A DNA stretch of 63,087 nucleotides, from positions 1 to 63,087 of the forward strand of contig VXMP01000071.1 of the NCBI GenBank assembly GCA_009841075.1. The letters are read 5' to 3'. The position numbers and the translations under genes were made by a program. Of this stretch, positions 55,187-57,505 are shown one piece after another (position 1 is the first letter of the stretch; the number at the start of each line of letters is the position of its first letter). Source of the DNA: Acidimicrobiia bacterium (GTDB taxonomy: Bacteria > Actinomycetota > Acidimicrobiia > Spongiisociales > Spongiisociaceae). Below the pieces are notes generated by a model, which had not been told where the DNA came from, made no database searches, and saw nothing but the letters and a program-made list of their open reading frames with translations.

Positions 55187-56446
55187 TTATCGCACTCCTA
55201 CGGGGACTCGGGCGGCCAGGTGGTTGTTAAGGTGTTCTACCAGGTCGTGGGCGTCGGCTTGGGCACCGCTTATGAAGCTGGAATTGCGCCTGCGCAGGAA
55301 GTTCAGTCCTATTACATACAGTCCCGGGGAGTCGGTAACCACCCCGCCCTGGTGACGTAACCGGCCTTTGTGGTCGAAAACCGGAAGGTGCAGCCAGGAA
55401 TAGTCGGGGCGATAGCCGGTGGCCCATAGGACGGTGCGGATATGGCCGTTGTCCAAGTTGAGTTCCAGCGGAGGAGAGGACTCCACCCGGGTGGGCTCAA
55501 ACCTATGGGGAGGGTCGTATCTTCCATCCAGGTCCCGCTCGGTTATCCATTCGTCAATGGTGTTAAGCAGACGATCCATTTTGAGATCGGCCCGCTTCAC
55601 CTTGTTGCGTAGGGCACCGGAACACTGGGCCTTACCGTCTTTAATGCCCGCCAGACGGCCTACCATCCGCACTCCCTGATCGGTCAGGGCGTTGAGGTCG
55701 AGCGTCCGGCGTTCGGGCGTCCCGACCAGCTGGGGGGAGGGAACCTGGCGAGCCCGGACAATGTCGTCCACCTCATCGAAACGTTCGGTCGAGACTTCGG
55801 TTACATCCATCCAATACCGAATGTCGCGGCCCCGATAAACCCGGGGTAGACGCACATGCTCACCCACCGAGACGGTCACCGGGCGGCCCGAACGATGGAT
55901 TTCCTCGGCCAGCTGAACTCCGGTAGCGGACACCCCCACCACCAGCACCCCTCCGTCCTCCAGATCGGAAGGCTGGCGATATTCGAGCGGGGTGATGGAA
56001 CGAACCTGGTCGGGAAGGGCCGCCGCAATTGGAGGCACCTTGGCCAGGTTGAACCCTCCGCTGGCCAGAAAAACCGACCGGGCATACACCACACCATTAT
56101 TGGTCACCACCTCGTACCCGATACGGTCCGGGCGAACAGAGGTGACGGTGGTGGAGGTGTAGAGCGGAGGGTTCACGAACCGGGCGTACCGAGCGATGAA
56201 GTCCACCGTCTCGGTCATGGTCATGAAACCATCGGGGTCGTCGCCGTCGTAAGCGAAGCCGGGCAGCCGAGCCTGCCAATTGGGGGTCAGCAGCCGAAGG
56301 GAGTCCCAGCGTTCGGTTCGCCAGGTATTGGCTACCTCACCTCGCTCGAGAACTATATGGTCGATTCCCCGAGCAGACAGGTAATAGCTGACCGACAGGC
56401 CGGCGTGTCCGGCACCGATTACAACCGCAGTGGTTTCTACCACCAA
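55187..56446 (-). CDS. Flavin-containing monooxygenase (CzcO/FMO-like)
   Basis: A 419-residue flavoprotein. The FAD-binding GAGHAGLSVSYYL is at residue ~11, the NADPH-binding GVSATGVQLAEE near 175, and the FMO ATGY motif is ATGYRPDYSWL near 350. Related enzymes oxidise S- or N-containing substrates or ketones using NADPH and O2. The final SSFISGAQADAHDLVEHL is typical of the actinobacterial CzcO-like branch. It starts 15 bases after the OsmC gene and is the last gene of the SAM-riboswitch operon. AAGGA lies 7 bases before TTG 56446. The substrate is unknown; a sulfur compound is suggested by the riboswitch. Confidence 0.9.
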   Translation of the reverse strand: MVVETTAVVIGAGHAGLSVSYYLSARGIDHIVLERGEVANTWRTERWDSLRLLTPNWQARLPGFAYDGDDPDGFMTMTETVDFIARYARFVNPPLYTSTTVTSVRPDRIGYEVVTNNGVVYARSVFLASGGFNLAKVPPIAAALPDQVRSITPLEYRQPSDLEDGGVLVVGVSATGVQLAEEIHRSGRPVTVSVGEHVRLPRVYRGRDIRYWMDVTEVSTERFDEVDDIVRARQVPSPQLVGTPERRTLDLNALTDQGVRMVGRLAGIKDGKAQCSGALRNKVKRADLKMDRLLNTIDEWITERDLDGRYDPPHRFEPTRVESSPPLELNLDNGHIRTVLWATGYRPDYSWLHLPVFDHKGRLRHQGGVVTDSPGLYVIGLNFLRRRNSSFISGAQADAHDLVEHLNNHLAARVPVGVR

Positions 56447-56461
56447 AATGGAATCCTTGGT

Positions 56462-57016
56462 TTAGCTGACGTTGACGGTCACGTTGGTGGGATTGGTCAT
56501 GATGTCGAAGACCGCCGAAACCTTCTGCGACTGGGCTACCAAAGCCTCCAGATCGGCCTCGCTGGCATCATCCGCCTCGATCTGATAGTTGACCCGCACG
56601 TCGCTGAACCCGTTCCGCACTTCGGGATCCGCTCCCAAAATACCGGCGATGTCCATATCGGCCTCGACGCTGGCCTTGACCGAACGGAGCTTGATCTCGC
56701 GGTTTTCGGCAACAGCCGCCACTCCTGCGGTCAGGCAGCTGGCCAGGCCGACCAGCACTATCTCCACCGGCGTGGCCGCATTGTCTTCGGCGGCGAAAAC
56801 CAGCGGATGATCCGAATCGAACTTGAAGGTGTCGGTGTGGTCGTGGTCCTCTCCTAGGCCGAAATAGCCTTTGACGGTCGACTTACTGTGGGTTCCGTGC
56901 ACCCACTCGTTCTGGGCCTTCCAGGTGAACTTGCCGGCTTCGGGGGCATCCCCTACGGCCGCTCTGGCCCCTAATAGGTGGGTGGTGTTCACCCCATTTA
57001 TCTGTCCTGTGCTCAT
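56462..57016 (-). CDS. OsmC-family protein
   Basis: A 184-residue protein of the OsmC/Ohr fold, which in studied members reduces organic hydroperoxides with paired cysteines. It has HPLVFAAEDNAATPVEIVLVGLASCLTAGVAAVA, with one conserved Cys. At the second-Cys position the sequence reads KVSAVFDIMTNPTNVTV with no Cys. So this belongs to the one-cysteine subgroup whose activity is uncertain. AAAAGGAG precedes the ATG by about 12 bases. It is downstream of a SAM riboswitch and a short Cys-Cys ORF and is coupled with a flavin monooxygenase. Confidence 0.92.
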   Translation of the reverse strand: MSTGQINGVNTTHLLGARAAVGDAPEAGKFTWKAQNEWVHGTHSKSTVKGYFGLGEDHDHTDTFKFDSDHPLVFAAEDNAATPVEIVLVGLASCLTAGVAAVAENREIKLRSVKASVEADMDIAGILGADPEVRNGFSDVRVNYQIEADDASEADLEALVAQSQKVSAVFDIMTNPTNVTVNVS

Positions 57017-57212
57017 GATGGATGGTTCTCCTTTTGGTTTCTTGGTTGTCTGATTGGTCGGATATTTCTTGGTTTTTCGAGACCGTTCTCCGCCGATTTT
57101 GTGACCCTGATTAATCCCAGGCTTGCTTCTGGACAGCAGGGGAGATCGGAGAAGGCGGTTCCGATTTAGCCGGGCCTTGAAGAAGGGGGACTCCCGAGTG
57201 GTGGCTGCGGCT

Positions 57213-57311
57213 TAGGGGCGGTTGCCAGGACCGCCCGGGTAGGCCACCCGGGAGCCTGGACAACACATGTACCCGCGAAATCCTGGCTTGATGATGGGCA
57301 GGTAATCCATG
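57213..57311 (-). CDS. Candidate 32-residue Cys-Cys peptide under SAM-riboswitch control
   Basis: A short ORF beginning MDYLPIIKPGFRGY and containing CCPGSRVAYPGG, in the leader between the riboswitch and osmC. GGAG lies 10 bases before its ATG. Its distal half overlaps a strong hairpin (57226-57260). It could be a regulatory leader peptide whose translation across the paired cysteines senses sulfur supply, a small functional protein or a modified-peptide precursor. A 71-residue frame starting 15 bases earlier overlaps it, but its composition looks random. Confidence 0.5.
57226..57260 (-). promoter_or_regulatory. Strong hairpin within the Cys-Cys peptide ORF
   Basis: CCCGGGT and ACCCGGG pair around a five-base loop, flanked by further CCAGG/CCTGG pairing. 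It lies over codons after the Cys-Cys pair, so ribosome position could decide whether it forms. No T-run follows. Confidence 0.5.
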
Positions 57312-57342
57312 TGTGACAGTCTCCATTCTCGCTTGTTTTACG

Positions 57343-57359: not shown

Positions 57360-57461
57360 GAGCGGAATACCGCCTCGGCTGTCTCATCGATCAGGCATTG
57401 GCACCCCTCCAAGGGTTGCCGCGGCTTCGTAGGGCCTGTCCCTCCACCGCTCTGGATGAGC
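57360..57461 (-). ncRNA. S-adenosylmethionine riboswitch (SAM-I / SAM-I-IV type)
   Basis: The minus strand shows the S-box core: P1 CTCATC (57461-57456) with GATGAG (57389-57384), then AGAGCGGTGGAGGGACAGG, CGAAGCCGCGGCAACC and GGTGCCAA. P2 is GCGG/CCGC with a kink-turn-like internal loop. P3 is GGCAACCC with GGGGTGCC. The P2 loop CAGGC can pair perfectly with GCCTG after P3, the expected pseudoknot. There is no room for P4, and an extra hairpin CGAGGCGG-TATT-CCGCTCG follows P1; both features point to the SAM-I-IV variant. It starts ~15 bases after a good -10. It should control the genes down to 55187. Confidence 0.88.
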
Positions 57462-57476
57462 GCGTTGTTGATTGAA

Positions 57477-57505
57477 TTAGACCACATGTTACCAAGAATG
57501 TCAAA
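57477..57505 (-). promoter_or_regulatory. Sigma-70-type promoter TTGACA-17-TCTAAT for the riboswitch operon
   Basis: TTGACA (57505-57500) is a perfect -35, spaced 17 bases from TCTAAT (57482-57477). Transcription would start near 57470, some 9 bases before the aptamer. It is the strongest promoter match in the window. Confidence 0.8.

Follow-up and report, generated by a model that had tools for sequence, protein, structure and literature searches.

A probable cysteine- and methionine-sensing leader peptide behind a SAM-I riboswitch upstream of osmC in one order of Acidimicrobiia

On the minus strand of the stretch of DNA analysed here (63,087 nt; hereafter the window), a short open reading frame (ORF) with two adjacent cysteine codons lies between a SAM-I riboswitch and an osmC-like gene, which raises the question of whether it yields a functional peptide or serves as a string of codons on which ribosomes wait. 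An earlier note on this DNA had favoured a translation-dependent attenuator that senses cysteine supply, stacked after a SAM sensor, and had named a real small protein or a modified-peptide precursor as the alternatives. Our main reading, to which we assign a probability of about 0.8, is that the ORF encodes a leader peptide for ribosome-mediated attenuation in response to charged Cys- and Met-tRNA, in series behind the SAM-I riboswitch, and that osmC would as a result be expressed under sulfur shortage. The comparison of related sequences argues strongly for such an attenuator; the effect of its helices on expression and the coupling between riboswitch and ORF are what we infer beyond it.

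The leader in the window and its riboswitch

The elements follow one another on the minus strand in the order promoter-like sequence, SAM-I riboswitch, GGAG, ORF and osmC, with a gap of about 195 nt between the leader ORF and osmC. The position of the ORF between riboswitch and osmC, the GGAG ten bases upstream of its start and the CCPGSR motif in its peptide had all been described correctly in the earlier note. The ORF itself is real as well, although the coordinates 57213-57311, given there with no strand, were off by one and become 57310-57212 on the minus strand. Where a single hairpin had been placed over the distal codons, two are seen, at 57252-57234 and 57236-57216, and a conserved helix that runs from the ORF to past its stop codon had been missed. 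The features are as follows.

57476..57504, minus strand: promoter-like sequence TTGACA-17 nt-TCTAAT, read by eye in the window and in aligned relatives, where it is kept; not reported by a simple consensus scan
57381..57462, minus strand: SAM-I riboswitch aptamer, Rfam RF00162, with the P4 hairpin missing in the Rfam alignment (cmscan, 68.1 bits against a cut-off of 44.4, E 9e-14)
57321..57324, minus strand: Shine-Dalgarno sequence GGAG of the leader ORF, ending 10 nt 5' of the ATG
57212..57310, minus strand: leader ORF of 32 codons, MDYLPIIKPGFRGYMCCPGSRVAYPGGPGNRP and a stop codon, from the sequence and its orthologues
57260..57268, minus strand: putative sensor codons Met-Cys-Cys (ATG TGT TGT), from the codon -3 rule across leaders
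57244..57256, minus strand: strand A, GGCTCCCGGGTGG, the 5' arm of helix H1 (codons G-S-R-V-A), from H1 covariation
57234..57252, minus strand: local hairpin A:B (CCCGGGT...ACCCGGG; in full CCCGGGTggcctACCCGGG), an alternative to H1
57216..57236, minus strand: local hairpin B:B2 (GGGCGGT-N7-ACCGCCC), compatible with H1 and ending just 5' of the stop codon
57189..57201, minus strand: strand C, CCACTCGGGAGTC, the 3' arm of H1, just past the stop of the ORF
57168..57206, minus strand: helix H2 (C0:D), which flanks strand C, with four pairs in the window (AGCC:GGCT)
56462..57016, minus strand: osmC-like gene (PF02566, E 6.7e-18), presumably controlled by the leader
55187..56446, minus strand: flavin-dependent oxidoreductase gene, near TIGR04046 and below its cut-off

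The last of these, next after osmC and its probable operon partner, resembles the MSMEG_0569 family of flavin-dependent oxidoreductases, under the family cut-off.

Many SAM-I aptamers of this order are short, at 82-103 nt (57462-57381 in the window; L041, L043, L059, L075), and others (L036) seem to retain P4. One SAM-I riboswitch was seen in the genome of the window (G000) versus two in each of nine congeners; its second copy may have been lost or be absent from the assembly. A relaxed-threshold Rfam scan of the leader for a second known element returned chance-level matches only, and Rfam holds no family for this leader. In simple folds, closure of the aptamer was without effect on the ribosome site of the leader ORF (0.42 versus 0.44), and sequestration of that site by the aptamer was rejected on these folds. 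Only 11-14 nt separate the aptamer from the start of the ORF in one family's metY leaders, so direct interference between aptamer and ORF is plausible there. The riboswitch may affect either transcription or the translation of the leader ORF, and this coupling is among the least certain parts of the proposal.

Conservation of the leaders and their Cys/Met codons

A translated search (E 1e-5 to 9e-9) recovered the ORF in all nine other genomes of the genus that were searched and also in a further two genera of its family; the order of promoter, riboswitch, ORF and osmC is constant there. Most relatives have a GGAG/GAGG-type site. The frame is kept, the start codon standing 19 codons from the helix in 11/11 orthologues and, in the leader of a second osmC, 26 codons from it in 9/9. 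An internal ATG at 57268 was considered as the true start and rejected, as the upstream ATG, which has a ribosome site, stays at a constant distance and the internal Met is one of the sensor codons. Upstream of the helix, substitutions at the first, second and third codon positions number 18/14/16 and 30/27/23 in two orthologue groups, and the ratios of non-synonymous to synonymous change are 2.5 and 4.4 against unconstrained expectations of 3.6 and 2.8. With ratios on either side of expectation and approximately equal change at the three positions, it follows that the frame and length are kept and most residues are not; purifying selection on amino acids was not found outside the helix. A frame and length that persist while residues drift favour an attenuator read by the ribosome over a small protein or peptide precursor. 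Equal synonymous and non-synonymous change, with which the earlier note would have refuted its proposal, is thus largely what the orthologues display, and it strikes at the protein and precursor readings rather than at the attenuator.

Leader cores gathered by three routes (riboswitch, helix model and DNA pattern) amount to 64 distinct sequences, all in one order of Acidimicrobiia, with 43 behind a SAM-I aptamer and 21 without one, a split made in the later sets by a simple sequence test and not by RF00162. One set was assembled blind to the peptide, with the SAM-I riboswitches of 59 relatives and 148 class genomes as starting points and with a long helix downstream, its 5' arm in a short ORF and its 3' arm past the stop, as the criterion; three leaders of the same type below the length limit were added by hand. 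Codon -3, counted from the helix Ser codon, is Cys or Met in 35/35 distinct leaders of this set (the final Cys in the window), and over the last eight codons Cys and Met account for 41% in the ORF frame versus 14% and 2% in the other frames. The Cys/Met codons concentrate at codons -3 to -8 ahead of strand A, as in MTKVRSSSAPMMCCCMPCSRVVSSL, MTANPTLSAVMWCCMPCSRVVRPL and MIFEFSSYPMMCRCMLRS. In two leaders of the peptide-blind set the cluster has Met and no Cys (PMAMMPSSRV), and because Met-only clusters (MAMMP, MMMML) and alternating ones (MCMCM) occur among the leaders, the sensed residues would be Cys and Met, not Cys alone. The attenuator proposed at the outset, and its stacking on a SAM sensor, therefore gain comparative support with a widened specificity: the Cys/Met cluster is kept, but the Cys-Cys pair is not strictly conserved, since Met replaces Cys in some leaders.

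A covariance model of the helix region matched 63/138 genomes of the order, and as it includes the sensor region, these matches are no independent test of Cys/Met. The model added riboswitch-less leaders with MCMCM clusters, for example in G018 and G025, genomes with no RF00162 match. In a scan of 295 genomes of the class, 50 had a match, all inside the order of the window, and the Acidimicrobiia genomes outside the order had no leader match; the sole match outside the order in 246 genomes of the phylum appears to be internal to another gene and was judged to be due to chance. Most of the named records that show the helix pattern are Acidimicrobiia or MAGs with loose names. Pattern matches in Frankia, Streptomyces, Micrococcus and similar genera had no such ORF by a script test and were likewise attributed to chance.

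Leader lengths differ widely between families. Five rhodanese leaders with no riboswitch (L216, L220, L222, L223, L265) look leaderless or nearly so, a promoter-like sequence running straight into the GTG or ATG of the Cys/Met-rich ORF. Three SAM-I leaders of family f3 (L047, L063, L070) have a short ORF with Cys/Met beside the stop (HRCPMSN, RHRCCRMP, THRCPMSSG) and no H1 helix, and are possibly of a different attenuator design.

The first genes after the leaders are mainly sulfur genes. Most are OsmC-like, followed by MetY-type (PF01053) and rhodanese sulfurtransferase (PF00581) genes; the others encode an NMT1/THI5-like substrate-binding protein (PF09084) and a DUF4395 protein, and one has no Pfam match. 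SAM-V riboswitches precede osmC and metY in Candidatus Pelagibacter, where both are among the most strongly induced transcripts under sulfur limitation, osmC leading the list (PMC5069961). By analogy, this response fits a switch that would be turned on when sulfur is short.

Pairing of the leader RNA and the position of the ribosome

Helix H1, of 10-13 bp, joins the codons right after the Cys/Met cluster to a strand beyond the stop, pairing A (GCTCYCGGGTGG, the S-R-V codons) with C (CCACCCGRGAGC), which in most leaders starts 6-13 nt past the stop and usually 7 or 10 nt past it. All 13/13 A:C pairs are kept in the window, two of them as G.U. Across 33 distinct sequences, 95.9% of cells are paired, a percentage inflated by the choice of loci for complementarity, and 6/11 pairs have changes on both sides. 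Double-change cells number 24; shuffling gives 5.4, with 0/500 shuffles reaching the observed count, and slid controls give no more than 2, and the specificity of the pairing exceeds that of permuted partners (26.65 versus 23.6, sd 0.23). The compensatory changes alter the peptide, turning SRV into SQV, SPV or SRA or placing a stop codon in the arm; as the peptide shifts along with H1, it is the RNA and not the peptide that is conserved at these codons.

A second helix, H2, forms between the bases immediately preceding C and a strand that lies, as a rule, 8-25 nt past C. It scores 16.6, whereas shuffling gives 10.3 and permuting the partners gives 13.0 (sd 0.32). Its pairs are diverse (GACACC:GGTGTC, GTGCCG:CGGCAC, GCCGCACACC:GGTGTGCGGC), and it is weak in the window, with 5-11 pairs in many relatives. 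Strand A is common to H1 and to the local pairing A:B, which has up to eight pairs and a three-base loop and occurs with the same spacing in most leaders; B also pairs with B2 directly before the stop. H1 and H2 have no strand in common, so they may coexist as a pseudoknot. A simple terminator scan found no intrinsic terminator (GC hairpin and U-tract) after the leader ORF, and across the leaders the tails of H2 are mostly not U-rich, with a few U-rich relatives; the leader was not placed in the intrinsic-terminator class because this U-tract test failed.

The proposed mechanism turns on where the ribosome stands. A ribosome awaiting Cys or Met at codon -3 would cover the first half of A, so that H1 is blocked and H2 can form; a ribosome finishing the ORF would halt 6-13 nt (usually 7 or 10) before C, covering the 5' strand of H2 and leaving H1. 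H1 would be the OFF state and its loss the ON state, a polarity chosen because of pathway logic. The route by which H1 might repress, whether Rho-dependent termination, pausing or an effect on osmC translation, is the least certain element. In folds predicted without pseudoknots and masked with an assumed E. coli-like footprint, a ribosome at codon -3 gave H1 in 0/64, a loss largely imposed by the mask itself, and H2 in 32/64; a ribosome at the stop gave H1 in 34/64 and H2 in 2/64, and with no ribosome H1 formed in 46/64. As modelled, codon -3 and the stop occupy fixed positions that appear suited to toggling H1 and H2. Accessibility of the ribosome site of the main gene changes slightly with ribosome position (0.54 in the stalled fold versus 0.47), and sequestration of that site was rejected on account of so weak a difference.

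An extended form of the proposal is a three-input sulfur sensor in one leader, in which SAM would be read by the aptamer and Cys- and Met-tRNA by a ribosome that chooses between two abutting helices, or makes and breaks a pseudoknot, instead of choosing between terminator and antiterminator hairpins with a strand in common, with the aptamer gating translation of the leader peptide; we offer it tentatively, at somewhat less than even odds.

The same two helices can be read with opposite polarity, H2 being a terminator and H1 an antiterminator that forms while the ribosome waits 5' of strand A. A few leaders are indeed U-rich after H2 (GGCGTTTTTATC in G224, GCGGCCTTTTCG in G198), and stalls at codons -6 to -8 leave A free, with H1 in 53/64 masked folds. 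However, most H2 tails are not U-rich, and the invariant sensor codon is codon -3, from which a ribosome would cover half of A, so that this polarity seems unlikely, if still deserving serious attention. It is improbable that an H-type pseudoknot of H1 and H2 acts alone, for example as a second ligand- or protein-binding element, with an incidental ORF. Such an RNA would account for the contiguity of the helices (0-3 nt apart), for a crossing loop of at least 8 nt and for the covariation of both, but would leave unexplained why the independently chosen leaders all have Cys or Met at codon -3, and in a single frame, and why their start and stop are fixed; moreover, the riboswitch-less leaders include apparently leaderless ORFs at the promoter.

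Readings in which the peptide itself is the product fare worse. The conserved ribosome site, frame and length would suit a genuine small protein, for instance a Cys-Cys peptide that binds metal or thiols. Its residues outside the cluster and helix nevertheless drift, changing to a similar extent at all three codon positions, the changes in SRV track RNA pairing, Cys is replaced by Met, lengths vary widely between families and the leader peptide has no match in Pfam or NCBIfam, which leaves the protein very improbable. A short Cys-containing peptide close to an oxidoreductase gene also recalls a modified-peptide (RiPP) precursor, a reading that is barely credible given that neither a conserved leader nor a conserved core sequence is present and that the same type of ORF precedes osmC, metY, rhodanese and transporter genes.

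Comparison with known leaders

A literature search found nothing on a SAM riboswitch in Acidimicrobiia and nothing relevant on a leader peptide in Acidimicrobiia. In attenuators of the trp type, the terminator and antiterminator share strands. The present leaders resemble the classical trp, his and leu attenuators in having regulatory codons and a ribosome whose position would select a helix, and differ from them in that no U-tract terminator is present and the long-range helix reaches from the coding region to a strand after the stop. In the LEU element 5' of actinobacterial leuA, leucine codons pair with the leuA Shine-Dalgarno sequence (PMC1262725); a leader peptide and a pseudoknot-like RNA pairing are common to both systems, but here the ribosome site of the gene lies outside the helix.

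The mycobacterial cys operons provide a further comparison. Cys leader peptides were predicted for them, but conserved terminator hairpins were lacking (Seliverstov et al., 2005, PMC1262725); later work reportedly showed these polycysteine ORFs to be cysteine-responsive attenuators (Canestrari et al., 2020, as cited in PMC9094748 and PMC13236596). Both there and here, a short actinobacterial ORF with clustered Cys codons stands 5' of sulfur genes with no intrinsic terminator. In contrast to the mycobacterial ORFs, Cys and Met would both serve in these leaders, the cluster abuts a covarying helix whose arms lie on either side of the stop codon, and the majority of copies follow a SAM-I riboswitch. 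The mycobacterial ORFs are leaderless, whereas the ORF of the window has a riboswitch 5' of it and a GGAG, and some of its riboswitch-less relatives look leaderless. The pairing of a riboswitch for a metabolite with a short ORF that is translated from the same leader recalls M. tuberculosis metE and ppe2, whose B12 riboswitch and uORF leaders show interplay (Kipkorir et al., 2024, PMC11260477); the ligand and aptamer are different there, and the abstract of that paper does not present the ORFs as amino-acid sensors by codon content.

The leader is therefore filed as a new form of leader-peptide attenuation. Actinobacterial Cys leader peptides have been reported without a recognisable RNA switch (PMC1262725), and in this clade a switch is visible by covariation, with Met codons added to the Cys codons and a SAM riboswitch stacked on top. 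If the proposal is true, one mRNA leader could monitor three sulfur metabolites ahead of the activation of sulfur genes, and since related genera offer copies of the leader both behind a riboswitch and free of one, what the riboswitch adds can be tested directly.
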